A stretch of DNA of 64,000 bases from an uncultured Methylocystaceae bacterium. GTDB lineage: Bacteria; Pseudomonadota; Alphaproteobacteria; Rhizobiales; Beijerinckiaceae. The position numbers and the translations under genes were made by a program. The notes beneath the pieces were generated by a model. The model searched no databases. It saw nothing but the letters and a program-made list of their open reading frames with translations, and was not told where the DNA came from. Location: positions 1 to 64,000 of the forward strand of contig CAIQCB010000059.1 of the NCBI GenBank assembly GCA_903870245.1. The letters are read 5' to 3'. Positions 25,043-48,005 of the stretch are shown here, piece after piece. The first letter of the stretch is position 1, and each line of letters opens with the position of its first letter.

Positions 25043-26794
25043 TCAGAGCAGCGAGAAGGGCAGAATGATGTCCATGTTGAACATGCCCTGCGATGAACTC
25101 ATGCCATTCTTGCTGAAGAAGGGCGCCGTTCCATTCACCGCCTGATCCCAGCGAAGCTCCGGACGGATCATCAGTCCCGTCAGGTAGGGGATGTTGTCGG
25201 GCAGTTTCGGCGTGATGGTCGTGCCAACCGTCAGCGCCAGATAGCTCGTGCCGGTATAGGCCGTGCCGCCCTGCGTTGACGAACCAAACGGGCTGAAGCC
25301 AGGCAGCGTCGTGTAGGTCCGGTTGATGCAGGACGGGCACCAGAACCCATGCTGCAGGTTCGACGCATCGAAGTAGCCCGGGAAGGCGCTCACGAAGAAG
25401 TTGTTCGAGTCGCGGAAGTATTCGAGACGCGCCTTGAGCAACCAGACATCGTCATACTTATACGAGACGTTCTGGGCGATACCATAGGCGGTGACGCCCA
25501 TTGGCCGCGCCGCGACGACGCCCAGGGGCAGGGGAGTGCCGCCCGCCGCGCCGATCAGGCCATTGGTGACGCCCCAGTTCCTTTGAGGCACGCCGAAGGA
25601 GCTCGGGTTCCAGCCGGATTCCATCATGAAGCTGATGTCTGTGATTGTTGTCAGGCGGTCAGTCGCTTTCCAGGTCGTGGTCAGGTTGTTCCATGAGCGG
25701 ATCGCGTTGTTGACGTCGCAGGCGCATTGCCCCGGAACGCCCCATGCGCTCATGTTGGAGGTGAAAGGCATGCCGTTGACGTCAGGTCCGACCGGATAGG
25801 GCCACGCCGCGCCGACGCCGCCGGCGGCTGCGCCATTGGCGAAAAAGCCTGTTGGCCAGCCAGTTCCAAATCTGTCCGTCTGCTTCGGATTTTCCGGACC
25901 TGTCGTGGTGATCGCCATGATCACGAGATTGCCGTCAAGAAGGTTGAAGCCGAAACCGCCATGGAAGGAAACGGCGTGGTTGTTGTCGCCCGGCCAGCCA
26001 ATCGACATGTTGTTGCCGGTGATCACGCCCGTGTAAATGTCGAGCCAGCTTTTCGAATGCGTCGTCACCATCACGCCGGTGTCGACGAAGGGGCCGAAGT
26101 TGAACATATAGGCGTGGCTGTAGAACAGGTTGTCCTTGGCGGTGATCAGTTCCGCGCCGTTCATCGTGACGAACTGTCCAATTTTTACGTCCACGCCGCC
26201 TTCTGTGATCGGGGTACGGATCGGGAAATGCATCAATCCATGCGCCTCGATCGGACCGATCTGCGTGCGCGAGGGGATCGCATAATCCAGTTCGCCCATA
26301 TAATGGTTGTAACGCATATCCTCGCCGACCATGCCCTGAACCTTGAAGCCGTAATCGAAGCCCTCGGCTTTTGGATCGAGCGGACGCTGAACGGTGAGCA
26401 CGCCGGAGTTGAAAATCGGCGTGTTGGCGCGATCGGTGTAGAGATGACCCCAGTTAAGACCGTTAAAGGGCTGGTTCGGGTTCACCGCGATACCGCCCTC
26501 GACGAAGCCATCGACGGTGAGCGTGTCTGTCCATTTCGCGGGAGGGGCCGGAGGCGCCTCGGCCTCAGCCCTCTTCTCTCCCTTTTTCTTCTTGCCTGAT
26601 TTGGCGGGCTGCGCGGCTGAGGAGGCCGACTGGCCTTGTTCAATCGCCTTCTCTTCTGCGGAACGCTGTTCGAAAGTCGGATCGGTGATCTCAAATTTCT
26701 CGTCAAAGACCTGCGCCTGGACGGCGCCGGTCATACAGGTGACGAGGCAGGCGGCCGCCGCCGAAGCCAGATAGAACTTTTTGGTCGGGTTCAT
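25043..26794 (-). CDS. Outer membrane porin of the OmpL-like beta-barrel (BBP2) type
   Basis: 583 residues. The start at ATG 26794 has AGGAG eight bases upstream and gives a clean signal peptide (MNPTKKFYLASAAAACLVTC, cleaved near AVQA); the longer frame to 27073 is an extension into the non-coding leader. A charged Lys/Glu/Pro linker (GKKKKGEKRAEAE) precedes a barrel of about 480 residues rich in aromatic and Gly residues, including DGFVEGGIAVNPNQP, WLDIYTGVITGNN and MIRPELRWD. It matches the putative beta-barrel porin-2 family, often abundant in methylotroph outer membranes. Substrate unknown. Confidence 0.85.
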   Translation of the reverse strand: MNPTKKFYLASAAAACLVTCMTGAVQAQVFDEKFEITDPTFEQRSAEEKAIEQGQSASSAAQPAKSGKKKKGEKRAEAEAPPAPPAKWTDTLTVDGFVEGGIAVNPNQPFNGLNWGHLYTDRANTPIFNSGVLTVQRPLDPKAEGFDYGFKVQGMVGEDMRYNHYMGELDYAIPSRTQIGPIEAHGLMHFPIRTPITEGGVDVKIGQFVTMNGAELITAKDNLFYSHAYMFNFGPFVDTGVMVTTHSKSWLDIYTGVITGNNMSIGWPGDNNHAVSFHGGFGFNLLDGNLVIMAITTTGPENPKQTDRFGTGWPTGFFANGAAAGGVGAAWPYPVGPDVNGMPFTSNMSAWGVPGQCACDVNNAIRSWNNLTTTWKATDRLTTITDISFMMESGWNPSSFGVPQRNWGVTNGLIGAAGGTPLPLGVVAARPMGVTAYGIAQNVSYKYDDVWLLKARLEYFRDSNNFFVSAFPGYFDASNLQHGFWCPSCINRTYTTLPGFSPFGSSTQGGTAYTGTSYLALTVGTTITPKLPDNIPYLTGLMIRPELRWDQAVNGTAPFFSKNGMSSSQGMFNMDIILPFSLL

Positions 26795-27519
26795 CGGAGT
26801 ATCTCCTGGGGGAGGTAGGAATTCGATGACGCAATGACATTCGAGACCCGACGAGCATTCAAGGTTATCAAATAGGCAATTGCCATTATGTGCAGCAAAT
26901 CGGCACAAGTTGAAGGAAGTTTCAAAGCGTTGTGACATATGAGCAACATTTTTTTTCGGTTCCAAACTTGCAATGTTGCATAATTGCAACAGAAAAGGGC
27001 GTCGATGCGCTCGCACAAGAGTACGATGGCAATCTGTCAGACCGACGCGAATCATCGCGCCGGGACGAAACAAACCTCGAATTCGAGCAGGCTTTTAAGG
27101 ATCTCTTGAGCGACCGATCGCCGTCGTAAGAGACCTGCGTGCAGCACACGCATTAATGTTGTGTTTGTAAGAGCGTCTTTCCGATCAATCGGCCCTTGAG
27201 TCGAATCGCATCTCAATTTCAAAAAATGTTTGTTTCCCTGCGAACACGAACCGCAAGCTCATTTGCATTTCTGGATTCTCAACCAAGGCAAGCCATGCGC
27301 GCATCATGAATTTGAGCGCAAAACAAACAGCATGAGTAATTAATAGGCGATTTGTCCTCAAATAAATCAAGCATTTGTTGTAATTATCTCACACCTCATA
27401 ACATTTCATGTCGTTATTGTTTTTCCATGTTGAATTCATTTCGTGACAGGCTCAATTTTCGCGAGCGTCAACGACACACCAATCAATCCCGCCATATATT
27501 TGCACAAGAGGACCACATC
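26795..27519. promoter_or_regulatory. 725-base AT-rich divergent control region between two outer membrane protein genes
   Basis: No confident gene; a 65-codon plus-strand frame (26932-27129) has no recognisable content. The region is far richer in A+T than its surroundings. An inverted repeat GTTGCATAATTGCAAC (26975-26990; six-base arms GTTGCA/TGCAAC) lies about 185 bases from the porin start. Both neighbours encode outer membrane proteins transcribed outward, so this region probably integrates their control, and could leave long 5' leaders. Confidence 0.5.
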
Positions 27520-28353
27520 ATGAATAAGAAGCTCGCGCTCGTTGCCATGACGACGCTATCATTCGCAGGGACCTCATTTGCCGCCGATCTTCCTACGCGC
27601 AAGGAGCCGGTTCTTGCGCCACCGCCGGCGTTGACCTGGAACGGTCTCTATGTTGGCGCGAACATCGGTGGCGCCTGGTCCGGCAGTAACTCCGGCTCAC
27701 TGCAAGTCTATGGCGGAGCGCCTGCGCTCAGCGCCGTGCCGCTTGGAAGCAACGCGTTCAATAACTACGGCGGTCTGATCGGCGGCGGCCAGGTTGGTTA
27801 CAACTATCAGATGTCGAGCTTCCTTATCGGCGCCGAAGCGGATATCCAGGGATTGGCGGCCAGCAATGGCGGCGTCAACTACCTGGGCGCTTCTTCCGGC
27901 GGCGGAGTCAACTATACGACCTTCGGCAAGGCGGTGAGCAATCTGCAATATATCGGTACGGTGCGCGGTCGCGTCGGTTATCTCGTGACGCCGAGCCTGC
28001 TGGCGTATGGCACGGCCGGCTTCGCCTATGGCGGCGTGTCTTCGACTGTTTATCTGGCGACCAGTGGTTCGGATGGCACGGGCGGCGGCGGCGCCCTCTC
28101 CTACGCCAACACGCAAACCGGCTGGACGGCTGGCGGCGGCCTTGAATGGATGTTCGCGCCGAACTGGTCGGCGAAGGCCGAGTATCTCTACTACAGCCTG
28201 TCTAACAGCTATGCGAGCACAACCATCGTCGACGCCGGCAATGCCTGGGCCTATGGCGTTGGCGCATCGCGTAGCTATAACGGCAACATCGTTCGCGCGG
28301 GCGTGAACTATCACGTCAACTGGAGCCCGGCTCCGGTCGTTGCGAAATATTGA
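27520..28353 (+). CDS. Omp31/Omp25-like outer membrane beta-barrel protein, second copy
   Basis: 277 residues from ATG 27520. The signal peptide MNKKLALVAMTTLSFAGTSF is cleaved before ADLPTRKEP, the same mature start as the copy at 20853. Shared family segments are TWNGLYVGANIGGAW, YGGLIGGGQVGYNYQMSS, TVRGRVGYL and the end RAGVNYHVNWSPAPVVAKY, which nearly matches the C-terminus of the other copy. It is an eight-strand barrel. The long frame from 27352 is an unspecific N-terminal extension. A strong terminator follows. Confidence 0.93.
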   Translation: MNKKLALVAMTTLSFAGTSFAADLPTRKEPVLAPPPALTWNGLYVGANIGGAWSGSNSGSLQVYGGAPALSAVPLGSNAFNNYGGLIGGGQVGYNYQMSSFLIGAEADIQGLAASNGGVNYLGASSGGGVNYTTFGKAVSNLQYIGTVRGRVGYLVTPSLLAYGTAGFAYGGVSSTVYLATSGSDGTGGGGALSYANTQTGWTAGGGLEWMFAPNWSAKAEYLYYSLSNSYASTTIVDAGNAWAYGVGASRSYNGNIVRAGVNYHVNWSPAPVVAKY

Positions 28354-28401
28354 GGCGACGCATCATCCGGCACGGGTGATGTCTCCAGGAAATATTTTTG
28401 A

Positions 28402-28429
28402 AGCCCGGCCCTGCGGCCGGGCTTTTTTT
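28402..28429 (+). terminator. Strong intrinsic terminator
   Basis: AGCCCGGCC (28402-28410), loop CTGC, GGCCGGGCT (28415-28423), then a seven-T run. It ends the Omp31-like gene. Confidence 0.92.
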
Positions 28430-28599
28430 ACCGCCACGGACAGCGAAAACGCCCCGCCATCCCGGCGGCCTCATGTCTGGCGCTTGCCCTTTGCTCAAAA
28501 ACGCTCATTCTGGAGACGACCGCCCCGGATGTGCGGAAATGCCTGCGCATCAGCAGGCGCGCGCAATCCATTACGGCGCGTCAGAAGCGGGAGGCGATC

Positions 28600-30132
28600 A
28601 TGGCGGATCAGCAGGTTATATCCGGCCCAAATTTCGCGCTGGGGGTCGCCATGAATGATCTTCCCGATGGCGCCGTGGTCTCGGGCCATGTCGCGGGCAA
28701 GGAGGCGATCATGGTGCGCCGGGGGCCGCAGGTCTTCGTCCTGGGAGCCTATTGCAGCCATTATCATGCGCCGCTTGCCGATGGATTGGTCGTTGGAGAC
28801 GAGATCCGATGTCCATGGCATCACGCTTGTTTCAGTCTCAAAACAGGCGCCGCGACGCGCGCTCCGGCATTCGACGCTTTGCGCGCCTGGCGCGTCGAAC
28901 GCGTCGGAGACGTCTATTTCGCCCGCGAGCCCCTTAAGCCAGAACCGCCCAACGCCGTGGTCCTTCCCGACCCGCCCAAACGCATCGTTATTGTCGGCGG
29001 CGGGGCCGCCGGCTTCGCCGCCGCCTACACTCTCCGCGCGGAGGGTTGGGACGGCTTGCTCGAACTCGTCTCCGCCGACCAGACCGCCCCCTACGACCGG
29101 CCGAATCTCTCCAAGGATTACCTCGCCGGCTCCGCCAGTCCCGACTGGCTGCCGTTGCGCGCTTCGGACTGGTATCGCGATCATGGCGTTCAGCTTCGTC
29201 TCGGGCGTCGGGCGCTGGCGCTGGACGCTCGCGCCCGACGTTTGTCGCTCGACGACGGCGCCGAGATCGCCTTTGATCGGTTGCTGATCGCCACCGGCGC
29301 CGACCCCGTGCGCTTGACGACGCCCGGCGCCGATCTGCCGCATGTGCATTACTTGCGCTCGCTGGCCGATAGCGATCGCCTGATTGCCGCTTGCGCCGGC
29401 GTCAAAACCGTGGCGATCATCGGGGCCAGCTTCATCGGTCTCGAAGTCGCCGCGGCCCTGCGTGCGCGAGGGTTAGAGGTGCGCGTTGTCGCGCCGGAAG
29501 CCATACCGATGGCGCGCATACTGGGTCCGGAGCTCGGCGCGCATGTCCGAAAGCTGCATGAAGACCACGGCGTGATATTTCACCTCGGGGATATTGCGAC
29601 GCAGATCGCTGACCGGCGCCTCACATTGCGCAGCGGGGCCGTCGTCGATGCCGATCTCGTTGTTGTTGGCGTCGGCGTCCGCCCTAATCTCGCGCTCGCC
29701 GAGCAGGCCGGCCTCGCCGTCGACAAGGGTGTGCTGGTCGATGAGTTTCTGGCGACCAGCGCGTCTGATATCTACGCAGCCGGAGATATCGCCAGTTGGC
29801 CAGACAGGGCGTCGGGCGGTCGTCTACGGGTGGAGCACTGGGTGGTGGCGGAGCGCCAGGGGCGGACCGCGGCCCGGAATATGCTCGGCTATCGAGAAAA
29901 ATTCGACGCGACGCCCTTTTTCTGGAGCCAGCATTACGACCAGACCATCTCCTATGTCGGTCATGCGGCGGCCTGGGATCGAATTGAAATTACCGGCGCG
30001 CCGGAAAGCGGAGACTGCATCGTGGCCTATTACGAAGGCGATATTCGCCGTGCTGTCGCCACTCTCGGCCGCGACCAGGACAGCCTGCGGGCGGAAGTTG
30101 ATTTCGAAAACGCCATCGTCGCGGCTTCCTGA
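28600..30132 (+). CDS. Rieske-FAD oxidoreductase (AIFL/ferredoxin-reductase type)
   Basis: 510 residues from ATG 28600 (GGGAGG upstream; the frame from 28531 is an extension). The N-terminal Rieske domain binds a 2Fe-2S centre through Cys52, His54, Cys71 and His74 (YCSHYHAP...CPWHHACF). It is followed by a two-dinucleotide-fold FAD/NAD(P)H reductase with VIVGGGAAGFAAA, the second GxGxxG-like AIIGASFIGLEVAAAL, and the FAD motif IYAAGDIASWP. The architecture is that of apoptosis-inducing-factor-like reductases and dioxygenase ferredoxin reductases with a built-in Rieske ferredoxin. The electron acceptor is unknown: no oxygenase gene is adjacent. It converges on the gene at 30165. Confidence 0.93.
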   Translation: MADQQVISGPNFALGVAMNDLPDGAVVSGHVAGKEAIMVRRGPQVFVLGAYCSHYHAPLADGLVVGDEIRCPWHHACFSLKTGAATRAPAFDALRAWRVERVGDVYFAREPLKPEPPNAVVLPDPPKRIVIVGGGAAGFAAAYTLRAEGWDGLLELVSADQTAPYDRPNLSKDYLAGSASPDWLPLRASDWYRDHGVQLRLGRRALALDARARRLSLDDGAEIAFDRLLIATGADPVRLTTPGADLPHVHYLRSLADSDRLIAACAGVKTVAIIGASFIGLEVAAALRARGLEVRVVAPEAIPMARILGPELGAHVRKLHEDHGVIFHLGDIATQIADRRLTLRSGAVVDADLVVVGVGVRPNLALAEQAGLAVDKGVLVDEFLATSASDIYAAGDIASWPDRASGGRLRVEHWVVAERQGRTAARNMLGYREKFDATPFFWSQHYDQTISYVGHAAAWDRIEITGAPESGDCIVAYYEGDIRRAVATLGRDQDSLRAEVDFENAIVAAS

Positions 30133-30164
30133 CCCGCGACGACGACTGTAGAGCCGCTAAAGCC

Positions 30165-33100
30165 TCAGTCGAGTCGACCGGTGGCGTGGCCGAGCATGGT
30201 GTAAACCTTGCCGGTGACGCCAGTGAGCAACGACAGTGTCCTTGAGCCGTCCAGATCGCCTCGGCTTGTCTCGACCAGTAACTCCTCAAAATTGCGGATA
30301 TATTGATCGATGGTGGCATGCAGTTCCGGGTCGATCCGGTAACGTCGGCCGATCTCCAGAAAAGTCTGTCGTCCCTGGGCCGTGTAGAGCCGCCGACCGA
30401 AGAGCCCGCCTTTCTCGCCGCTTTGATAGCGGCGCCATACGTCTTCGACTTCACGATCATCGACCATGCTGGCGATATCGAGAGAAAGATTGGCAAGTCC
30501 TTTGGCAACCTCAGGTTGCGCCGGCGCCGGCTCGGGCGCCAATGGCGTGGGCTCGGGGGCCAATAATGGCGCCGGCGGCGGCGCGCCCCGTTCGACGCGA
30601 TCCTTCAGACTGCTGAGCCAGCCGCCTTCCGGGACAGCCGGGCGAGCAGGCGGGGGCGGATCGAAGTCAGGCAAAGTTCCGGGCGCCGGAGCAGGCGCCG
30701 CCGGACGCTCGACCGGCGCAAACTGGCGGGGCGGCGGGGGCGGATTGAAGTCAGGCGAAGCCTCGGGCAGTGGAGCAGACGCCGCCGGACGCTCGACCGG
30801 CGCAAGCTGGCGGGGCGGCTGCGGATTGAAGTCAGGCGAAGGCTCGGGCAACGGGGCGGGCGCAGCCGGTCGCTCGATCGACTCAAGCCGGCGGGGCGGC
30901 GGCGCAAAAGCGCTCGGCGCGTCGGCGGGCGGCGGCGCGGAGATGTCGAACTCCTGTCCTGACCGGGTGACAAAATTTGTCAGTTCTTTGAGGGCCTTGA
31001 CCTGATCGATGACAACTCGGCGCAGAGCGGTTGCCTGCGCCGTCGTCTCGCGCGGTAATTCTTCGGCTCCCTTGCGAACTTCGGCGCGCGTTTCCTCGAT
31101 TTCTGAGCGGATTTTACCGGAGAGGTCGCGGATTTCTCCTGCCGCTGTTTCGAAACTGCTGCGCGCGTCGCGGAATAGCCTCGACATTTCCGCATTCGCC
31201 TCGGCCAACGCCACGCGCATCTCCTCGGCGACGAGAAGGCTCTCGTCCTTCGCAGCCGCGCGGGCCTGCGCGAAACGGTTCTCGATCAAATCGGCAGTCC
31301 GACCTGTGGCGTCCTCAAGCGCAGTCCCGACGTTCTGCGAACGCTCTTCGATGGTCTGGAGGGCCTTCTCCATCGTCGCCGACAGTCCGTCCATCGAGAC
31401 CTCGAAGGCGGCGCGCTTTTCTTCGAGCTGGGCGACATGGCGCGCCAGCGCCGCGTGACGTTCGTCGAAAGCGGTGTCCAGCGTTTGCTGACTCTGCGTG
31501 AGCTGTTGCGCGCTGTCGATAAGCAAAGAGTGTCTCTGCTCAAGAGAGCCGACGAAAGCCTCTGCGCCCTGCATCGTATCCCTGGAGACGGCGCCAAGCT
31601 GGTTTACCTGAGCCGAGATATTGCCGACGACCTCTCGGAATTCGACCAGACGTTTGCCAATCTCCGCCTCCAGTCCGGTAAGATTGCCGCCGGTCTTGTC
31701 GAGGATATTGGAGAGGGAGACATTGGTTTCATCGAGCTTTGCGACGACTGCCGGCAAGTCGGCGCGGATACGATCATTCATTTCCATCAGCGCCGTGATC
31801 GATGCGTTCGCTCCTTCCTCGATGGCCCGTGCGAGTGAGCTCTGGGACTGATCGAGAGTGCGCACCAGTTCGTCGCGTCTTTCAGCGAGATGGCGAGCGA
31901 TGGCCGAACCTCGGCTCTCAATGGCGTTGGCGACGAGTTCGCCAACATTGGCGAGTTCGCGCGTCACGACGCCGCCCTTTTCCCCGAGGGCGGTTTCGAC
32001 GCCATCCAGTCCCTGGTCAAGCGTCGACTGTAATTGTCCCAGTCGGCTCTCCAGCGATGCGCTGATCTCCCCGATCCGGGCCGCCAGCGTCGCACCGAGA
32101 TCGCCCGTGCGGGCGTGCAAGGTCGTGTCGAGTTCGCGTCGCGCCTCCGACAGGATCTGATTGATGTCCTCCAGCCGCGCGCCGACAGCATCGACGATCG
32201 CGCGACTGCGTTCGCCCAGTTCGGCCGACGCCAGTCCGAGACGTTCGACGACATTTTTTTCGAGACGTTCGATCCGGCCATCCAGCGCTTGCGAGATTTC
32301 ATCGGCGTTTTTGCCGAAGACATTATCAATTCGTTGTGCGCCTGACTCCAGCACCTGCGAGAGTTCGCCGCCGCGAGCGGAGAGCTTCTCCTCAAGCTGC
32401 TTCAGTCTGTCGTCGAGCGCGGCGGACATCGTGCGGCCGCCTTCTCCCATAGCGCGGGCGATTTCCAGCGCATGGGTGGCGAGCGATGTTTCAAGTCGTT
32501 TTCCGCCGGCGCTGAGACCTGCGTCCATCTTCTGCGCCAGCGCTTCAACACGTTCGGTCGCCTCTTTAGCGCGCGCAACGCCGATGTCCTCGAAAGCGCC
32601 AATTGATTGGTTCAACGAGGCTGCGAGTTCCTGAGATTGTTCGCCGATTTTTTCGACGACTGCGCCGCCCTTTTCCGAGAATGCGCGATTAAGCTCCTCG
32701 ATCCGTGCATCGAAGGCCTCCAGAAGCTTGGAACCGCGCACGTCAATCGCTTGATCGAGCAGGCCAAGGCGCTGATCGATTTCATGCGAGAAATGCCGGG
32801 AGTTGTCGCCAATTCTGGAAGCGAGATGGTCCGTCTGAGCGACAATTCTGTCGACCAGCGCGCCGCCATGCTGTGCAAGAGTTTGATCGATGGCCTGTAT
32901 CCGGTTGTCCACCGCCTCGACCAATGTGCTGGCGCGCTCTCCCAGTCGCGCATCGGCGTCTGCCGTCTGCTCGGAAAGACGTTGAACCAGCGCGTCTCCC
33001 TTATCGCCGATAATCTTCTCGATGGCGTCGAGACGTTGGGCCACGTCCTCGGAAAGACGCGTGGCGTGGCCGCCAATGCGCTCTGCGAGTTCGCCGCCGT

Positions 33101-37780: not shown

Positions 37781-39655
37781 ATGAGCAGGCCTTTGGTCGA
37801 CAGTTTTTCGTCCGTGACGCCGGGTTCGAAGGCGTTTCCGGTTGAGATCGATTTTCTTCGGCGCCACGGGGTCTCCAGGGCGCGGCTTGCCAGGGCTTCT
37901 GTCCTTGCCCGTCGGCAAGGCGTCTCCGCCGACCGGGCGTTGCTGGCGGAAGGGATCGTCACCGAAAGCTGTTTTTACCGCGCGCTGGCGTCGCAGCTTG
38001 GCGTTCCCTTTTTGGAGGATCAGGCGGAAGTCGCGCCGGAAGGAATGATGACCATTATGGACGGCTATGCGCGGCTGCATCGGCCGATTGACGGCGCGCA
38101 TTGGCTGTTTGCCCCGACCGGGCCTGCGATCCTGCGGTTGATGAGCCTGTCACGGGTCGATGGCGAACTCCCGTTCTTTGTTATCACCACGCCCATGCTG
38201 CTGACGGCGGCCGTGCGCCGCGCCGCTTCAGCGCAGGCGGCGCAGCAGGCGGCTTTCAGCGCTGAGCGGATTGATGGCGAACTCTCCGCGCGCGCCTCTT
38301 TGCGCGCCCGTAGGCCGCTTCTGGTCGCCACATTTTTGCTCATGGCGCTGCTCGCCGGCTTGTGCGCGCCCCTGGCGCCCATCGCACGCGGCAGCGGCAT
38401 GCTGCTGGGTCTGGCTTTTCTGGCGTCGATCGCGCTGCGACTGTTGGCCTGCGCCGCCAGTTTTTCGCCCGCGCCGCGCGGACAAAACCTCGATAACGCA
38501 ACCTTGCCCGTCTACACTATTGTCATCGCGCTCTATCGCGAGGCTAATGTTGTGCAACAATTGGCCCGCGCTATCGATCGGCTCGATTACCCGCGCGCCA
38601 AGCTCGATGTGAAATTTGTCGTCGAAATCGACGATGAGGCCACGGCTCAAGCCTTGCGCGCGCATTCCCCCAAAGCGCCCAGTGAAATTGTCGTTGCGCC
38701 CAGAGGCGCGCCACGCACCAAGCCGCGCGCCCTCAACGTCGCCATGCCGCTGGCGAGGGGGTCGCTGGTGGCGGTTTACGACGCCGAGGATGTGCCGGAG
38801 CCGGCTCAGTTACGGCGCGCGGCTGCGTTATTCGCCTCTTTGCCGAAGGAGGTCGCCTGTTTGCAAGCCAGCCTTGCGATCGACAATGCGTCACAGAACT
38901 GGATGACGGCCCTCTTCGCCATGGATTATGCGGCGCTCTTCGATGTCTATAACCGAGGTCTCGCTGCGCTCGATCTGCCGTTGTTTCTCGGCGGGACCTC
39001 CAATCACTTTCGCATCGAGGCCCTTCGCGAAATCGGTTTCTGGGACGCTTTTAACGTCACCGAGGACGCTGATCTCGGCCTGCGTTTGGTCCGCGCGGGC
39101 TACGCTGTGCGCACTTTCGACTCCGAAACCTGGGAGGAAGCGCCGGGAGACTTCGTCGCCCTGGCGCGCCAGCGCACCCGCTGGCTCAAGGGATGGATGC
39201 AAACGGCGCTGGCGCATTGTCGTCACCCGGCGAGATTGTTTGGAGAGTTGGGGTGGCGTCGGGCTGCGGCGGTGATCGCTATGTTTGTCGGAGGCGTCCT
39301 TGGACCGCTGTTCGGGCCATTTTTCGCGGCGCGTTTCCTTCATGATGTGATCTATGATGATTTGTTAAGACCGCAGGGCGGCGTCGAAACGGCCCTCGCG
39401 TTTCTTTGGTGCGGCGTCGCCGCGCTGGGTGTGGTCTCGCTGCTCTGGCCCCTCTGGATGGGCGTCCGGCGTAGAAAGCTTGTGCGTCATTGGCGAATGC
39501 TTTTATTTCTGCCGGTGTGGCTCGCCATGCTAACCTTCGCCGCCTGGCGGGCGTTTTCTGAATTATGGTTGCGGCCGTTTCATTGGGAAAAGACCGAGCA
39601 TGGTTTCGCCCATCGCGAAACTCCCGAACCGATCAGGCAAAAAGCCACTGTTTGA
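37781..39655 (+). CDS. Membrane glycosyltransferase family 2 with T2SSE_N (MshEN-like) N-terminal domain
   Basis: 624 residues. The N-terminal 140 residues match the type II secretion ATPase N-terminal fold (FLRRHGVSRARLARASVLA, LAEGIVTESCFYRALASQLG). Then come two membrane helices (about 185-225), a GT2 catalytic domain with YTIVIALYREANVV, the nucleotide-binding YDAEDVPEP, the acceptor motif TEDADLGLRL and RQRTRWLKGW, and at least three C-terminal helices. This is a processive-type polysaccharide synthase layout, probably building an exopolysaccharide or cell-surface glucan. It diverges from the SBP gene by 32 bases and its 3' end overlaps the convergent DGQHR gene by 23 bases. Confidence 0.9.
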   Translation: MSRPLVDSFSSVTPGSKAFPVEIDFLRRHGVSRARLARASVLARRQGVSADRALLAEGIVTESCFYRALASQLGVPFLEDQAEVAPEGMMTIMDGYARLHRPIDGAHWLFAPTGPAILRLMSLSRVDGELPFFVITTPMLLTAAVRRAASAQAAQQAAFSAERIDGELSARASLRARRPLLVATFLLMALLAGLCAPLAPIARGSGMLLGLAFLASIALRLLACAASFSPAPRGQNLDNATLPVYTIVIALYREANVVQQLARAIDRLDYPRAKLDVKFVVEIDDEATAQALRAHSPKAPSEIVVAPRGAPRTKPRALNVAMPLARGSLVAVYDAEDVPEPAQLRRAAALFASLPKEVACLQASLAIDNASQNWMTALFAMDYAALFDVYNRGLAALDLPLFLGGTSNHFRIEALREIGFWDAFNVTEDADLGLRLVRAGYAVRTFDSETWEEAPGDFVALARQRTRWLKGWMQTALAHCRHPARLFGELGWRRAAAVIAMFVGGVLGPLFGPFFAARFLHDVIYDDLLRPQGGVETALAFLWCGVAALGVVSLLWPLWMGVRRRKLVRHWRMLLFLPVWLAMLTFAAWRAFSELWLRPFHWEKTEHGFAHRETPEPIRQKATV

Positions 39656-40706
39656 TGAGAAATCCCGAAGACAAAGCCTTAGCGAAATATTCATGCAGCG
39701 CGGCGGTGGTGAGGCCGGCGCGCGGCAGTTCGGATTTCTTGAGCCGCCGGAAGAAGGGGATCAACACTTCCTCGAAATTCGCCACGGTGTAGTGTCCGCC
39801 ATGACGGTCGGCGACGCGTTCCGCAACATTAACGAAGAGCTGCGTCAGCGCTTTGAATAAAACCGGATTGGCGAGTTGCGCGTCGAGATCGTGCAGCCCC
39901 AGCCCTCGACGGCAGGCGAGCAGATAGGGGTTAAGCACGTCGTAGACGTCGGCGGCTGGGGCGCCTTCGAAGGCTTTGCGGATCGACCGCAGCGCCGCAT
40001 TGAAAGTGACGCGCGAGATCATGCCCTTGCGTTTTTCCGCCGGACTGAGAAGCCCGTTCAGCGCGCTGTCCTCGCGCTGGAAAAACAGATCGAACACGTC
40101 GTGCAGCAGAGCGTCGGTTTTCGATTCCACCTCGGAAAGACGGCGAATATCGAGCAGCAATTCGCCCGGCACCGGTTTCTGCTTGGTGTTGATGTCCATG
40201 AACAGCCGGCATTCCTGCGCGCGCGTTAAACGGTTGTAAATCACCACAGGAGCGCTGACCGTCTTTTTCGCAAGCCGAAAGCCGAAGACGCGATGCTGGC
40301 CGTCGATGATCAGGAAGGCGCGCGGATCGGCGCGAAACGTGAGGTCGCCGCTGTCCCGGTCATACCGCAGATGCGCGCGGGTTTGCGCCGAGAGCACGAT
40401 GGCTCCCGGCACTGTCCCGAATCCCGTGTCGATGTATTTCGCGATGGCGCGGGCGCGGCGTTCGTCGAGGAGACGCTGGAAGCCGTCGATAGGGTTCTCG
40501 TTGCGCGGTTCAACAACGCATGCCTGAGCGAGCACGTCGCTGGGGAGAACGGTGGAGAAGAAACGGTGGCGGCCCTGTTCGACGAGCAGCGCGCGGCCTT
40601 TGAATTTCTCGCCTTCGGCGGCGAGATCATGATGACCTGAATGCGCATCGCTCAGGCTTTGAAGCGAAGGGGACTCGTCCGTGACGGGGGCGGGGTCGCG
40701 ATCCAT
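39633..40706 (-). CDS. DGQHR-domain (DndB-like) protein
   Basis: 357 residues from ATG 40706, which has GAGGA upstream; the frame to 40769 adds 21 unspecific residues. The signature FLIIDGQHRVFGF places DGQHR at residues 135-139, followed by VVIYNRLTRAQECRLFMDIN and NTKQKPVPGELLLDIRRL. The DGQHR family includes DndB, the repressor and specificity factor of DNA phosphorothioation, and proteins found in other DNA-modification and defence loci. No dndACDE, dpd or other modification genes are in the window, so this copy is solitary. The function here is open. Confidence 0.9.
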   Translation of the reverse strand: MDRDPAPVTDESPSLQSLSDAHSGHHDLAAEGEKFKGRALLVEQGRHRFFSTVLPSDVLAQACVVEPRNENPIDGFQRLLDERRARAIAKYIDTGFGTVPGAIVLSAQTRAHLRYDRDSGDLTFRADPRAFLIIDGQHRVFGFRLAKKTVSAPVVIYNRLTRAQECRLFMDINTKQKPVPGELLLDIRRLSEVESKTDALLHDVFDLFFQREDSALNGLLSPAEKRKGMISRVTFNAALRSIRKAFEGAPAADVYDVLNPYLLACRRGLGLHDLDAQLANPVLFKALTQLFVNVAERVADRHGGHYTVANFEEVLIPFFRRLKKSELPRAGLTTAALHEYFAKALSSGFLIKQWLFA

Positions 40707-40962
40707 GGTCCCAGATTCCTCGAAGCGCGAAGCGTGACAGCCTCCGCGAGAGCCGACTCGACGAATCAAAACGAACGCTTTCCAGCGAAGGCTAGGCGCG
40801 AAAGACAGGGCTCACAAGCCTGTTTTTGCGATCTGTGTTTTCAGTGCTGGCTTGGGCGGCCAGGCGCCCGGGGCCTCCTGGCCCGTCCAGCATGCTGGCC
40901 TTGGTCGTGTTTTCGCCGCATCGGACGTTCAAACATGCGTCATTAACATCAAAGGAGCCATC

Positions 40963-41281: not shown

Positions 41282-42256
41282 TCATTGCGCCTTCGACGCG
41301 AGCCTGCGGTATAACTCGCGGGCCAGAAAGGCGAGAGCGATGCAGCTATGCGGCGTCGTGATGGCGAAATGATAAGCCAGCGCCGTCGAGAGCGCCTCCT
41401 CCTTGCTCGCGCCGTTGAAGGCGACGAGATAGGACATGATCCCCGCCTCGACGACGCCCAGGCCGGCAGGGCTGGTCGGCACCGCGATCGCCAGCGCCAC
41501 GATCAAAAGTAATGTCATGGCGCCCAGAACTCCCGGACCGGCGCCATGTAAAAAAGCGTTGAAGGCGAATGTCGCAAGAAGCACATTCGTCGCCCAGATC
41601 GCCGCAGTGAACGCCGCCGCCCGGCCAATCGGATGATCAATCGCCTTCAGGTCGGCGCGCGCGCGTTCCGTATCCAGTCCCAGGGATTTAAGGATTGGCC
41701 AGTCGCCGACATGCGCGACAATATTTTCCGCATTCGCCCGGATCGCATAGAGGCCGGCGACCCCCAGCGCCCCGATCGCACATAGCGGCGCCAGCACGCC
41801 GAGATCGACGACGCCCGTCCCGGCGCCCAGCACGACGAGAAGCGCTACAATGATGAGCGCCGCCAGATCGTACAGTTTTTCAATAACGACAGACACTCCG
41901 AGCGCGCCGACCGGGTAATCGAAAATTGTATGGCCAATATATATCTTGGCTCCCTCGCCGAGCCGGAAAGGCAACAGACTGTTGAGTGTGAAGCCGACCG
42001 TCGTGATGATCAGGGAGGGGTAGAACCTTCCACCCAGGATCGTTGCGAAACGCGATGAATAAAAAGTCAGATCGATAAGGTTGATCGCCATCGACGCAAC
42101 AATCGCCGTTGGCGGGATGTTGCCCAGTGCGAGCATCAGTTGCGTGAAATCGATGTTGTTCCTCAGCCACCAGGCGAGGTAGGCGAAAAAGCAGAGATTG
42201 AGGAGGATCAACGCCTCCTTTTGCCGTTTCGCGACGGCTTTCAGTCGTCTCTTCAT
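41282..42256 (-). CDS. Flippase-like (LPG synthase TM region) integral membrane protein
   Basis: 324 residues with about eight membrane helices. It has the lysylphosphatidylglycerol-synthase transmembrane region pattern: LNSLLPFRLGEGAKIYIG, VVIEKLYDLAAL and the late PTSPAGLGVVEAGIM motif. Proteins of this family move or bind lipids; some are linked to hopanoid (HpnL) or polysaccharide-lipid transport. It lies 18 bases downstream of ccmB in the same operon. No catalytic (transferase) domain is attached. Substrate unknown. Confidence 0.88.
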   Translation of the reverse strand: MKRRLKAVAKRQKEALILLNLCFFAYLAWWLRNNIDFTQLMLALGNIPPTAIVASMAINLIDLTFYSSRFATILGGRFYPSLIITTVGFTLNSLLPFRLGEGAKIYIGHTIFDYPVGALGVSVVIEKLYDLAALIIVALLVVLGAGTGVVDLGVLAPLCAIGALGVAGLYAIRANAENIVAHVGDWPILKSLGLDTERARADLKAIDHPIGRAAAFTAAIWATNVLLATFAFNAFLHGAGPGVLGAMTLLLIVALAIAVPTSPAGLGVVEAGIMSYLVAFNGASKEEALSTALAYHFAITTPHSCIALAFLARELYRRLASKAQ

Positions 42257-43805: not shown

Positions 43806-45092
43806 GTGAGCAAGCACAAAAGCCTTTCGGATTTCGCCGCGCGGAGATTCCGTCTCGCCGGCAGCGCGCTTCTGGAGTTGAACGATCCGTTTTTTGCCCA
43901 GCTTGACAAGCTGCGCGCCGAACGCGCCGCAAAAGGCAAGAATTTCGTCAGCTTCGCAAATTACGATTATCTCGGTCTCGCCGGCCATCCGCAGATCAAG
44001 GCCGAGGCGAAGCGAGAGATCGACGACCTGGGCATCGGCGCGCTGGCGTCGCGTCTGGTCGGCGGCGAACGCTCGACCCACAAGCTGTTCGAGGCGGAAA
44101 TCGCCAAATTCATCGGTATGGAAAGCGCTTTGACGCTGGTGTCCGGTTATCTCGCCAACGTCACCACCATCGCCTGGTTGATGAACGGCAAGCGCGACGC
44201 GATTTTTATCGATGAACTGGCGCATAACAGCATCGTTTCCGGCACGGACGGCGCGGTAGCGGAGGTCATCAAGTTCCGCCACAATGATCTGGATCATCTC
44301 GAACATTTGCTTCAGCGCAAACGCGAGGAGTATCGCAATGTGCTGATCGTCGTCGAAGGCGTCTACAGCATGGACGGCGATACCGCCGATCTGCCGCGCC
44401 TACTCGATATTCGCGATCGTCACGGGGTCTGGCTGCTGGTTGACGAAGCGCACTCGCTCGGCGTTCTCGGCAAGACCGGGCGCGGGCTCGCCGAACATCA
44501 GGGCGTCGACGCCTCGCGCATCGATCTTGTGGTCGGCACGCTGTCGAAATCGCTCGCAACATGTGGCGGCTACGTCTGCGCCAAAAAGGGCGTGATCGAC
44601 TGGTTCCGCTTCACTCTGCCGGGATTCGTCTACAGCGTCGGTCTTTCGCCGGTAATTCTGACGGCGGCGCGCACGGCTCTGCATCTGATGCAGGAGGAGA
44701 CCTGGCGGATCGACAAGCTCGCCGCCAACGCCGAATTGTTCCGACAGGTGGCGCATGAGAATGGCTTCTCGACCGGCCCGGCGATCGGCCGCGGCGTCGT
44801 GCCCATTCTTTTCGACAGCGACATCGAGACCATGTGGGCGGCCCAGCATTTGCTGGAAGAGGGGTATTATGTGCCTCCGGTGGTCCGCATTGGCGTGCCA
44901 AAGGACGGCCCGCGGCTTCGCTTCTTCTTTTCGACCAATCATACAGAGGAGGAAATCCGCGGAGTGATCGCCTGTCTCAAGCGCATCCCGCCGGTGAGCG
45001 AGGAGGCGCAGAGAATTGTCGCCGAAGCCATGTCTGGCGTGACCAGCCGCCGCGCGCCCGCCGCCCTGGAGAGCTCGGCCGCGTCATCATGA
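43806..45092 (+). CDS. Alpha-oxoamine synthase, probable serine palmitoyltransferase
   Basis: 428-residue PLP enzyme from GTG 43806; the frame from TTG 43737 adds unspecific residues. It has the fold of serine palmitoyltransferase and KAPA synthase: FVSFANYDYLGLAGHP, LGIGALASRLVGGERSTH, VLIVVEGVYSMDGD, LLVDEAHSLGVLGKTGRG, and the PLP lysine in GTLSKSLATCGG (Lys248, codon 44547). These enzymes condense an amino acid with acyl-CoA. The TLSKS context and the downstream ceramide-type genes point to serine and a long acyl chain, giving 3-ketosphinganine. It is the first gene of a four-gene operon with gaps of 39, -4 and 4 bases. KAPA synthase is less likely: no bio genes nearby. Confidence 0.88.
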   Translation: MSKHKSLSDFAARRFRLAGSALLELNDPFFAQLDKLRAERAAKGKNFVSFANYDYLGLAGHPQIKAEAKREIDDLGIGALASRLVGGERSTHKLFEAEIAKFIGMESALTLVSGYLANVTTIAWLMNGKRDAIFIDELAHNSIVSGTDGAVAEVIKFRHNDLDHLEHLLQRKREEYRNVLIVVEGVYSMDGDTADLPRLLDIRDRHGVWLLVDEAHSLGVLGKTGRGLAEHQGVDASRIDLVVGTLSKSLATCGGYVCAKKGVIDWFRFTLPGFVYSVGLSPVILTAARTALHLMQEETWRIDKLAANAELFRQVAHENGFSTGPAIGRGVVPILFDSDIETMWAAQHLLEEGYYVPPVVRIGVPKDGPRLRFFFSTNHTEEEIRGVIACLKRIPPVSEEAQRIVAEAMSGVTSRRAPAALESSAASS

Positions 45093-45131
45093 CGCTTTCG
45101 CTCGCGAAGCACGATCTTTAGGACTGACACC

Positions 45132-46343
45132 ATGGCGCAGATCGAGATTGTGCCCGTCGAGGGCCTCTTCCGCTTTACGACCTTCTGCAAACTGCCCCGG
45201 CAATTGTATCGGGGCATGAGCGGTTACGTGCCGCCGCTCGATCTCGAGCGCTGGACTCTGTTCGCTCATCGCCTGAATCCACATTACCGGCTGGTGGAAG
45301 AGCAGAAATTCCTGGCTCGTCGCAATGGCGAATGGGTCGGCAGGATCGCCGCGCAAATCTACAAGGATATAATCCCGGTCGGCGCCAGCGCCGCGCAATT
45401 TGGCGCCCTCGACGCCATTGATGACATCGAAGTCGTGCGCGCCCTTCTCGCTGCGGCGGAGGGCTGGTTGCGAGCCCGGGGCGCCGAACGAATGAGCGGC
45501 CCTTTTTCTCCCTCGGTCAACTCCGAATGCGGCCTGCTGGTCCAGGGCCAGGAGGCGACGCCGATGTTCCTGATGCCCTGGCATCCGGCCTATCTCGCCG
45601 CTCATCTCGATGCGCTGGGCTACGCCAAGGCGCGCGATCTGATCTCCTACCGGTGGGACGAGAGCGACAGGAGGCCCGAAGAAAAAGCGCGTTTTTCGCT
45701 GCGCAAGGAGTGGGCCGAGCGGCTCAGGGTGCGAACGCTTGACATGTCGCGCCTCAAGACTGTCGAGACTTCGGTCATGACGGACCTCTTCAATGACGCC
45801 TGGAGCGGCAACTGGGGCTATGTGCCCTTCACCAAAGAAGAATTTGACTCCACCGCCGATGGATTGAAATTCATCATGCCGCCGGATTACGGGCTCGTCG
45901 TCGAACTCGACGGGAAGCCGCAATCATTCGTCGTCGCCTTGCCCAATTTTTGCGAGATTATCGCCGATCTCGACGGCCGGCTGTTGCCCTTCGGCTGGGC
46001 GCGGCTGTGGTCGCGGATGCGCAATCACAAGTTTATCTCGGTGCGGATCGCCTTGCTCGGCACACGCAAGGCCCTGCAAAACAGCGCCACCGGCGGGTTG
46101 ATCCTGATGACGATTGTCGAGGAGGCCCGCCGCCGCGGCGCGAGCACGCCCGGTCAGCACCTCGAGGCCGGCTGGGTGCTGGAGGACAATATCCCGATGC
46201 GCCGGCCGATTGAAATGTTCGGCGGCAAGGTCGATAAAATTCACAGGATCTATGAAAAGCGTCTGAAGACGCCAGATAACGTCTCGTTGCGTGAAGGCGA
46301 ACGCGTCGACGAGACTGCGGCACGACAGGATTCAGGCACATGA
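45132..46343 (+). CDS. GNAT-like acyltransferase, candidate bacterial ceramide synthase
   Basis: 403 residues beginning MAQIEIVPVEGLFRFTTF. The segments LPRQLYRGMSGYVPPLDLER, NPHYRLVEEQKFLARRNGEW and VGRIAAQI place it in the long GNAT-like family often annotated as hypothetical or dATP-pyrophosphohydrolase-like; the C-terminal half again shows GNAT-like content (KFISVRIALLGTRKALQNSA). The ceramide synthase characterised in Caulobacter (bCerS) belongs to the GNAT superfamily. Given its place between a serine-palmitoyltransferase-like gene and a dihydroceramide-type desaturase, I infer N-acylation of the long-chain base. That is inference from context; the sequence alone shows only the fold. 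The stop overlaps the next start by four bases. Confidence 0.78.
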   Translation: MAQIEIVPVEGLFRFTTFCKLPRQLYRGMSGYVPPLDLERWTLFAHRLNPHYRLVEEQKFLARRNGEWVGRIAAQIYKDIIPVGASAAQFGALDAIDDIEVVRALLAAAEGWLRARGAERMSGPFSPSVNSECGLLVQGQEATPMFLMPWHPAYLAAHLDALGYAKARDLISYRWDESDRRPEEKARFSLRKEWAERLRVRTLDMSRLKTVETSVMTDLFNDAWSGNWGYVPFTKEEFDSTADGLKFIMPPDYGLVVELDGKPQSFVVALPNFCEIIADLDGRLLPFGWARLWSRMRNHKFISVRIALLGTRKALQNSATGGLILMTIVEEARRRGASTPGQHLEAGWVLEDNIPMRRPIEMFGGKVDKIHRIYEKRLKTPDNVSLREGERVDETAARQDSGT

Positions 46344-47335
46344 ACGGCATTTCGGTCACATCCACTGGCGCCGACCGCTCGCATGTCGAGCGCCGCCGGC
46401 TGATACTCGAAAAATATCCGCAGGTCCGCGAATTATTCGGCGCTGACCCGGTGACCTTCAGGATCACAGCCGGCATCTTTGTCGGCCAGTTCCTGATCGC
46501 CGCTCTGATGGGCTCTCTCGGCCTCTCGTACTGGTGGTTATCCCTTATTCTGGGGATCTGCGTCGGCGCTTTCGCCAATCACGCCAATTTCGTCATCATC
46601 CACGACGCTATTCATAATTGCGTCTTCGACAATCCGCTGGCCAACAAATGGACCGCCATTCTCGCCGATCTGCCCAACGGCTTCCCGACCGCGATGGGTT
46701 TTCGCTGCTATCACATCAAGCATCATTCCCATCTCTCCGCCTATGATTACGACGCCGATATTCCCAGCCGCTGGGAGGTCGAGTGGGTTGGCAACAGCAC
46801 ATGGCGCAAGGCGGCATGGCTCTTCGCTTTCCCCGCGATCCAGCTCGCGCGACTAAATCGCCTGAAAGGAACGGTGCCCATCTGGGGCAAATGGACCTAC
46901 ATCAATGTCGCCGTCATTGTCGCCTTCGATCTCTTCATGGTGCTCGCTTTCGGTCCAAACGCGCTGCTCTATCTGTTTTTCTCCTTCTGGTTTTCGGTGG
47001 GCGGACTGCATCCCCTCAGCGCGCGCTGGCTCCAGGAGCATTTCGGCTTCGCGCCCGATCAGGGCACCTTCGATTATTACGGTCCGCTCAATACGCTGGC
47101 GCTGAATATCGGTTACCACAACGAACATCATGATTTTCATGAGATACCGTGGACGCGCTTGCCGCAACTCACCGAAATGGCGCCCGAGTTCTACAAAACC
47201 CTGCGCTGCCATAAATCATGGTTTGCGCTGCTGGTGACCTTTATTTTCGATCCCGACTACTCGCTCGGCACGCGTTCGGAGAATGTCGTGCAGGCGGCCC
47301 ACCGCGACGCGCCCGTCGCAGCGGCGGCGGAGTAA
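46340..47335 (+). CDS. Sphingolipid delta-4 desaturase-like membrane desaturase (DEGS1-type)
   Basis: 331-residue membrane di-iron desaturase. Three His boxes are complete: HDAIHN (His88, His92), HIKHHSH (125-131) and HNEHHD (His260, His263, His264). Beyond the boxes it follows the animal dihydroceramide delta-4 desaturase pattern closely: ILEKYPQVRELFGADP at the start, GLHPLSARWLQEHFGF, FDYYGPLNTLALNIGYHNEH, then DFHEIPWTRLPQLTEMAPEF and a final SW...FIFDPDYSLGTRS. This similarity is far more specific than to ordinary acyl-lipid desaturases. Predicted reaction: insertion of a 4,5-trans double bond in a dihydroceramide or long-chain base. The start overlaps the preceding stop (ATGA), indicating coupling. 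Confidence 0.9.
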   Translation: MNGISVTSTGADRSHVERRRLILEKYPQVRELFGADPVTFRITAGIFVGQFLIAALMGSLGLSYWWLSLILGICVGAFANHANFVIIHDAIHNCVFDNPLANKWTAILADLPNGFPTAMGFRCYHIKHHSHLSAYDYDADIPSRWEVEWVGNSTWRKAAWLFAFPAIQLARLNRLKGTVPIWGKWTYINVAVIVAFDLFMVLAFGPNALLYLFFSFWFSVGGLHPLSARWLQEHFGFAPDQGTFDYYGPLNTLALNIGYHNEHHDFHEIPWTRLPQLTEMAPEFYKTLRCHKSWFALLVTFIFDPDYSLGTRSENVVQAAHRDAPVAAAAE

Positions 47336-47339
47336 ACCC

Positions 47340-48005
47340 ATGACCGATAATTCAAATGCTTCCAATGCCTCCTCGAACGAGGCGCTCGACGCTTCACCTC
47401 GTTTGTTCGAGAATAATCTCCTCGACAAGATGTCGCGCGTGCATCATCTCACGCCGGTAATCGTCTACACGCCGATCTTTCTTGGTCTTGTGTTCTACTC
47501 GCTGACCCTCAATAGCGCCGGCGTCGTTGTGTTTGGATTGCTGCTTGGCTATCTGGGCTGGACGCTGACGGAATATTTCGGCCACCGCTTTCTGTTTCAC
47601 ACCGTCTTTCCCTTGCCCTTCGGTCTGGGGCCGCGGTTCCAGTTTCTGATCCATGGCGTGCATCACGTCTATCCCAGCGATCCGCTGCGCCTCGTTATGC
47701 CGCCGTTGCTCTCGGCGCCAATCATGCTGATCGCGCTCGGGGTCATTCGTCTGTTGTTCAGCGATGTTTTCTGCTGGCCGGTGCTGGCGGGCTTCATCGC
47801 CGGCTATGTGATCTACGATTGCGTGCATTACTGGACGCATCATGGCCAGCCGACCTCCGAATTCGGCAAGCTGGTGAAGCGTCTACACATGCTGCATCAT
47901 TTTCGCGACGCCGAAAAAGGCTTCGGCGTTCATGCTATCTGGTGGGATTATGTTTTCGGCACGGCCTATCGCAAGGACGAAACCCCGGGGGCGCGCGCGG
48001 TCTGA
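47340..48005 (+). CDS. Fatty acid 2-hydroxylase (FA2H/Scs7)-like membrane hydroxylase
   Basis: 221 residues from ATG 47340, four bases after the desaturase stop. Membrane di-iron hydroxylase with the His motifs HRFLFH (82-87), HGVHH (105-109), HYWTHH and HMLHHF. The order and spacing closely follow the catalytic part of eukaryotic fatty acid 2-hydroxylase: TEYFGHRFLFH, then FLIHGVHHVYPSDPLRLVMP, then GYVIYDCVHYWTHHG, ending KGFGVHAIWWDYVFGT. The cytochrome b5 domain of the eukaryotic enzyme is absent. Predicted reaction: 2-hydroxylation of the N-acyl chain of ceramide; hydroxylation of the long-chain base is the main alternative. Last gene of the operon; converges with ligA 15 bases away. Confidence 0.9.
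   Translation: MTDNSNASNASSNEALDASPRLFENNLLDKMSRVHHLTPVIVYTPIFLGLVFYSLTLNSAGVVVFGLLLGYLGWTLTEYFGHRFLFHTVFPLPFGLGPRFQFLIHGVHHVYPSDPLRLVMPPLLSAPIMLIALGVIRLLFSDVFCWPVLAGFIAGYVIYDCVHYWTHHGQPTSEFGKLVKRLHMLHHFRDAEKGFGVHAIWWDYVFGTAYRKDETPGARAV

Follow-up and report, generated by a model that had tools for sequence, protein, structure and literature searches.

Results

A four-gene locus in an uncultured Methylocystaceae bacterium

Ceramides of the sphingosine type that carry a 2-hydroxy acyl chain are generally regarded as eukaryotic. Four neighbouring genes in the DNA of an uncultured Methylocystaceae bacterium raise the question of whether a bacterial operon could encode the synthesis of such a lipid. 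The window (the whole stretch of 64,000 nucleotides that was analysed) is contig G000:C59 of a 3.2 Mb assembly, and the genes occupy positions 43806–48005 of its plus strand. An initial annotation, made from the letters alone, had described them as tightly packed with intergenic gaps of 39, −4 and 4 bases, and all starts, stops and gaps are as it gave them. Gene 1 (43806..45092; GTG start, 428 aa) is predicted to encode a serine palmitoyltransferase (SPT)-like α-oxoamine synthase, dependent on pyridoxal phosphate (PLP), for the first, long-chain-base-forming step. Gene 2 (45132..46343; ATG start, 403 aa) would encode an N-acyltransferase of the bacterial ceramide synthase (bCerS/YghO) type with a tandem GNAT fold, gene 3 (46340..47335; ATG start, 331 aa) a DEGS1-type sphingolipid desaturase with the His boxes HDAIH, HIKHH and HNEHH, and gene 4 (47340..48005; ATG start, 221 aa) the catalytic domain of an FA2H/Scs7-type fatty acid (ceramide) 2-hydroxylase.

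We consider it likely that these genes form one operon for the synthesis and tailoring of ceramide in a Methylocystis-like methanotroph, with Δ4 and 2-hydroxy steps and with the reductase encoded elsewhere. The prediction of a ceramide operon is well supported by homology, by conservation of the gene set and by co-occurrence.

Conservation of the gene set

Of 499 relatives of the desaturase in named genomes, the best 80 were used for the locus counts. A gene was scored as near the desaturase when both lay on one strand no more than 8 kb apart; many of these loci are cut by contig ends. The closest named relatives in this set are from Methylocystis and related Methylocystaceae, and we infer a Methylocystis-like methanotroph as host. 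The order SPT–bCerS–desaturase–hydroxylase is repeated in a genome of the same genus (G425), in one of the same family (G442) and on Methylocystis and Methylosinus contigs. The arrangement is not one of chance, as related genera have kept the same set. At the 35 alphaproteobacterial desaturase loci, which are of the Beijerinckiaceae/Methylocystaceae type, SPT and bCerS genes were each nearby in 32, the hydroxylase in 19 and all four genes in 18. Where at least 6 kb was available on both sides (23 loci), SPT and bCerS were present in 23/23 and the full set in 14/23.

The gene set recurs among 26 verrucomicrobial and acidobacterial desaturase loci (SPT in 22, bCerS in 17, hydroxylase in 24, all four in 16), and one of the two remaining loci had bCerS nearby. 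The verrucomicrobial order is desaturase–hydroxylase–SPT–…–bCerS. Loci with desaturase, hydroxylase, SPT-like and bCerS genes were recorded in Verrucomicrobia, some of the Udaeobacter type (L108, L110, L112, L114, L115, L116, L118, L120, L123, L125, L127, L129, L137, L140 and L143), and in one acidobacterium (L132). At L118, the verrucomicrobial locus examined, a CDP-alcohol phosphotransferase gene lies between SPT and bCerS. This locus and its flank hold two such genes, which suggests a ceramide with a phospho-alcohol head group.

In a sample of the order, the desaturase was detected (E 1e-20) in 12 of 297 genomes, nine of them from a single Phreatobacter-type genus; bCerS was present in all nine, on another contig or at least about 2 Mb away. 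No bCerS was found in the three same-family genomes without the desaturase that were tested (G304, G189 and G070).

The predicted core enzymes encoded by genes 1 and 2

Gene 2 aligns along its full length with YghO of E. coli BL21 (36% identity over 381 columns, E 2e-80), the N-acyltransferase of rhodobacterial ceramide synthesis also named ‘aca’ (PMC9386255). It has no match in Pfam or NCBIfam and no PDB sequence match at E 1. Its predicted structure is a tandem GNAT fold (predicted local distance difference test score 87.6) and the top PDB fold matches of this model are themselves tandem GNATs. Together with the YghO homology, this bears out the proposal that gene 2 is a GNAT-like protein of the bCerS superfamily. 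The verrucomicrobial homologue in L118 clears the cut-off for the GNAT domain PF00583, and homologues of gene 2 occur in 26 of 190 genomes of the class, its own included.

Gene 1 matches PF00155 (157.9 bits) and 54 distinct sequences of solved structures, KBL, SPT, BioF and ALAS among them, and it carries the TLSKS lysine in the T-x-S-K-S context that binds PLP, along with DEAHS and LAHNS motifs. A plain BioF assignment was rejected on score (332.1 bits, cut-off 426.45); unlike gene 1, a paralogue in the same genome (L008) groups with E. coli BioF. In a 36-row tree, gene 1 and the other operon copies form a clade of their own (support 100/99), separate from canonical SPTs, BioF and KBL, the deepest forks having support of 65/48. 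The sister of this clade is one that we label X40, and the next nearest sequences, weakly placed (87/78), are two unlabelled paralogues from the same genome. Loci of the X40 type were seen in other genomes of the family (L169, L170, L171 and L172), three of the four with a distant ketoacyl synthase (KAS) nearby and L169 with a related short-chain dehydrogenase (SDR) nearby.

The predicted tailoring enzymes encoded by genes 3 and 4

Gene 3 contains FA_desaturase (88.9 bits, cut-off 29.7) and Lipid_DES (36.6 bits, cut-off 23) domains, and both are above cut-off in 8/8 and 2/2 bacterial homologues scanned as well; the Lipid_DES scan covered gene 3 and these homologues. Against human DEGS1, in a sequence entered by hand, gene 3 shows 35% identity over 310 columns and scores 164 bits, compared with at most 41 bits for the six other desaturase-family proteins. 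These outgroups were six of 11 desaturase matches, four DEGS-type sequences and a fragment (L188) having been left out; one outgroup reading frame (L187, 252 aa) was chosen by its histidine motifs and is possibly incomplete. In the tree, DEGS1, which has a long branch and is of unsure placement, falls among the DEGS-type sequences of Bacteroidetes, and three of the six outgroups branch from one unresolved node together with the bacterial DEGS-type sequences. The initial annotation held that gene 3 follows animal dihydroceramide Δ4 desaturase well beyond its His boxes. The domains and the difference in score agree with this, whereas the tree gives no supported split from those three desaturases. 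We rejected an ordinary acyl-lipid or carotenoid desaturase on the NCBIfam CrtW and CrtR scores (about 27 bits, cut-offs 350 and 475) and on the low scores of the six outgroups, the tree itself not being decisive. There was no PDB sequence match to gene 3 at E 0.001, and comparison of its model fold returned the general membrane desaturase/AlkB superfamily only and, at E 0.001, nothing viral.

Gene 4 matches FA_hydroxylase (PF04116, 57.8 bits, cut-off 31), and at E 0.1 its only PDB sequence matches are two structures of yeast Scs7 (E 7e-23 and 1e-22). Across 13 homologues, eleven clustered histidines are invariant and the RLVMPP motif is mostly retained, so that the reading of gene 4 as a relative of fatty acid 2-hydroxylase is upheld. 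The Pfam scan found PF04116 alone in this 221-aa protein, with no fused N-terminal cytochrome b5 domain. Such a domain is typical of the yeast and mammalian enzymes; plant enzymes are without it, so it is not strictly defining. The label ‘eukaryote-like’, which had been given to the whole operon, suits genes 3 and 4 and does not suit genes 1 and 2.

Other alphaproteobacteria showed a distant gene of the FA_hydroxylase superfamily near bcerS in 14 of 24 loci (L010–L033). We rejected these as true FA2H orthologues (22–38% identity and no more than 52 bits, except L030 with 33% and 108 bits). A separate locus, L056 (G035:C88), has SPT-like, FA2H-like (33%) and bCerS genes together, and neither AcpR nor CerR was detected in its 14 kb.

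A candidate reductase on a second contig

A ceramide pathway of this kind would require reduction of a 3-keto group, and the initial annotation had remarked that no cerR-like ketoreductase lies in the window. This held: the only match to E. coli CerR in the genome is weak (46 bits, control 182.9) and lies on another contig. The genome search that had been proposed for cerR likewise returned no orthologue, an alphaproteobacterial CerR query reaching 79 bits at best against 175–204 for the positive controls. The best AasR match was 37 bits (control 475). Because these scores are far below those of the positive controls, the genome appears to lack orthologues of both CerR and AasR. No AcpR was found at any of the fetched loci, a genome-wide AcpR search not having been made.

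Our candidate is an SDR at G000:C43:28279-29052, on a different contig from the operon. It belongs to a cluster outside the window that encodes an acyl carrier protein (ACP), a KAS, a small protein, a MaoC dehydratase, the SDR and glycosyltransferases of families GT21 and GT2 (L068 7317-12898, equal to about 25816-31397 of G000:C43). In 12 of the 35 alphaproteobacterial loci, an SDR of a single kind sits no more than 8 kb from the desaturase, in a convergent cluster that is the counterpart of the one on C43; it has a GT2 gene, a KAS gene where the stretch is long enough, and GT21 in 3/12. The MaoC dehydratase, small protein and ACP were found in the SDR-cluster loci that we checked, in part where the contig ends.

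Across 99 genomes of the family, the SDR (E ≤1e-60) is present in 20, and all 20 fall among the 23 that have an operon-type SPT. The latter was defined by at least 56% identity; 35 genomes matched at E 1e-80, and the 12 not counted comprise G538 at 50% identity and others at 38–43%. The hypergeometric probability of this co-occurrence is 4e-18 by genome and 3e-7 by genus, with cut-offs of our own choosing and kinship ignored. At L151 (Afipia) and L176 (G502), relatives of the SDR adjoin SPT and bCerS, and these relatives join the SDR clade at 99/97; a dissimilar, long-branched dehydrogenase of the same genome (L070) also falls in this clade, perhaps as an artefact. We lean towards the C43 SDR as the 3-ketosphinganine or 3-ketoceramide reductase. 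The GT21 gene of the cluster was rejected as the hopanoid glycosyltransferase HpnI (TIGR03472, 168.7 bits, cut-off 310).

A predicted route to tailored ceramides

In the pathway that we propose, the SPT-like enzyme would condense an acyl thioester with an amino acid, of which serine is the most likely, and so form a 3-keto long-chain base, which the bCerS/YghO-type GNAT enzyme would N-acylate. The 3-keto group would be reduced by an enzyme from another locus, most probably the C43 SDR, and either of these two reactions may come first. The DEGS1-type desaturase would then insert the 4,5 double bond and the FA2H/Scs7-type enzyme would add a 2-hydroxyl group to the N-acyl chain. The ACP, KAS and MaoC-type dehydratase of the C43 cluster may supply acyl-ACP, and its two glycosyltransferases a sugar head group. 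The ceramide formed would probably have a 4,5 double bond in its long-chain base and a 2-hydroxy group on its acyl chain, and it may be glycosylated. All of the chemistry is read from homology, the weakest steps being the choice of amino acid by gene 1 and desaturation rather than C4 hydroxylation by gene 3.

Several observations weigh against this proposal. Gene 1 falls below the cut-offs of all three curated bacterial SPT equivalogs in NCBIfam (NF047599, NF047600 and NF047603; 292.8, 274 and 221.4 bits against 500, 640 and 670), and we therefore term it SPT-like and not SPT. Nor does it join the canonical SPTs in the tree, in which the deepest forks are poorly supported. The predicted serine palmitoyltransferase/KAPA synthase fold is accordingly sustained at the level of the α-oxoamine synthase family and the TLSKS motif, and as a specific SPT it falls short; serine as the substrate is inferred only, given the missed cut-offs and a grouping with neither canonical SPTs nor BioF. 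The X40 sister clade is found in G304 and other genomes, and bCerS is absent from both that were tested (G304 and G189), so that a link with ceramide does not extend throughout this α-oxoamine synthase lineage. The gene set also breaks up in places: none of the 17 Bacteroidetes desaturase loci has SPT, bCerS, the hydroxylase or the full set nearby, and at 16 of the 35 alphaproteobacterial loci no hydroxylase gene accompanies the desaturase on its strand within 8 kb (L089 has one on the opposite strand, 1.3 kb away). The congener G425 has an AasR-like fatty acyl-AMP ligase match that was not seen in G000 (G425:C6:3963187-3964749, L072; 302 bits, 35%, inside a 986-aa frame), and no other pathway gene was recognised in the surrounding 20 kb. 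Three of the 23 SPT genomes (G490, G502 and G526) are without the SDR at our cut-off, G502 having the more distant relative at L176 and G490 retaining the rest of the C43-type cluster. Finally, no report of sphingolipids or ceramides in Methylocystis was found among the titles and abstract openings of the open-licence literature.

The same operon might carry out somewhat different chemistry. Gene 3 would in this case be a dihydroceramide C4-hydroxylase yielding phytoceramide, or an enzyme of mixed activity, and/or gene 1 would use alanine or glycine to give 1-deoxy-type ceramides. We regard this as improbable, since the closest characterised relatives of gene 3 are the DEGS family, the main reaction of which is Δ4 desaturation. 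It draws on the position of gene 1, with its missed SPT cut-offs and separate clade, and on the precedent of DEGS2, described as a bifunctional desaturase/hydroxylase (PMC10140171); like DEGS2, gene 3 might hydroxylate C4 instead. 1-Deoxysphingolipids have moreover been reported in bacteria (PMC11334938). A doubt of similar size attaches to the reductase: the C43 SDR shares a gene run with the ACP, KAS and MaoC dehydratase and may be the ketoacyl-ACP reductase of that module, with another dehydrogenase of the genome reducing the ceramide. Other candidates do exist, as the genome has 10 matches to the C43 SDR (E 1e-10) and 19 to PF01370, and the SPT operon of G490 is kept without the SDR. However, G490 (L175) keeps the KAS module without the SDR as well, and no KAS module was detected in the 21 kb of L151 or on the 9 kb contig of L176, where relatives in the SDR clade adjoin SPT and bCerS. 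We thus hold the module-reductase explanation to be unlikely.

A third explanation departs further, in that the operon would make some other aminolipid, for instance a hopanoid partner or a signal of the N-acylated amino-ketone or hydroxyamine kind, and no ceramide at all. It is hard to reconcile with two independent families of sphingolipid-tailoring enzymes (Lipid_DES and Scs7-type) standing with a bCerS homologue in one operon, a combination repeated in Verrucomicrobia. Although gene 1 is not a curated SPT and one C43 glycosyltransferase is weakly HpnI-like at the score given above, we consider this explanation very unlikely and retain the ceramide operon with Δ4 and 2-hydroxy steps as our preferred interpretation.

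Genomic neighbourhood

Upstream of the operon, on the opposite strand, are ccmA and ccmB, and downstream is a convergent ligA. Close by, beyond ccmAB, the window encodes an LPG_synthase_TM/flippase-like membrane protein (41282-42256, minus strand) that may have a part in lipid export, and a further minus-strand reading frame (39633-40769) carries what we take to be a DGQHR motif. Scans for promoters and terminators gave counts near those of shuffled sequence (2 against 1.1 and 5 against 4.8, respectively). A plasmid or virus origin was rejected, there being no plasmid match and no viral relative.

Discussion

Our analysis suggests that some bacteria make ceramides resembling those of animals, including humans, by a partly undescribed route. 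If this is true, one bacterial operon accounts for both features in methane oxidizers and in Udaeobacter-type soil Verrucomicrobia, and ceramide signals from soil would have to be reread. Tractable bacterial DEGS-type and FA2H enzymes would become available for structural work, interdomain transfer of DEGS-type desaturases would become testable, and the C43 SDR would be a candidate bacterial ceramide reductase other than CerR. More tentatively, and with slightly more doubt than confidence, we envisage in Beijerinckiaceae-type methanotrophs a complete alternative bacterial route to ceramide that needs none of AcpR, AasR and CerR. It would comprise a separate α-oxoamine synthase lineage, bCerS, the SDR and a dedicated ACP/KAS module, and would lead to 4-unsaturated, 2-hydroxylated and probably glycosylated ceramides. 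Verrucomicrobia would make a phosphoalcohol-headed counterpart, and the bacterial relatives of the desaturase would be broad enough to be the source of the animal enzyme.

The initial annotation knew of no described bacterial operon that has both a Δ4 desaturase and a 2-hydroxylase. Among titles and abstract openings of the open-licence PubMed Central literature we found no report of a bacterial Δ4-desaturase operon, which is weak evidence of absence, and the statement stands uncontradicted there. Sphingolipid-linked FA2H homologues are already known from myxobacteria (PMC10002949). Spt, bCerS and CerR homologues are described as widespread in bacteria in a study whose main text does not contain the term ‘desaturase’ (PMC11334938).

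Among characterized systems, gene 3 shares with animal DEGS1 the N-terminal Lipid_DES domain, the His boxes and the sequence identity noted above; it differs in that it belongs to a bacterial operon, next to genes of the SPT-like and bCerS kinds. Gene 4 has in common with yeast Scs7 and mammalian FA2H the clustered histidines, the H-G-x-H-H and RLVMPP motifs and its match to Scs7, and differs from them in having no detected fused cytochrome b5 domain. The myxobacterial FA2H homologues (Ring et al. 2009), tied to sphingolipid formation, are likewise bacterial, but they belong to another phylum, and the accessible portion of that report makes no mention of a Δ4-desaturase operon (PMC10002949). 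CC_0202 of Caulobacter is likewise reported to be a hydroxylase of a bacterial sphingolipid, acting on its amide-linked acyl chain; this enzyme is of the DesA desaturase/hydroxylase family and not FA2H, and its gene lies away from spt (PMC11324152). Also close to the operon is the rhodobacterial ceramide pathway of Caulobacter crescentus and E. coli BL21, for which spt, acpR, aasR, cerR and bcerS (aca/yghO) are described (PMC9386255, PMC11087976), CerR being periplasmic with the source of its electrons left unexplained (PMC11087976). The two systems share an SPT-family enzyme and, at 36% identity over the full length, a YghO/bCerS-type N-acyltransferase. The methanotroph genome differs in that no AasR or CerR orthologue was found in it, nor AcpR in the fetched loci, and its operon adds two tailoring enzymes.

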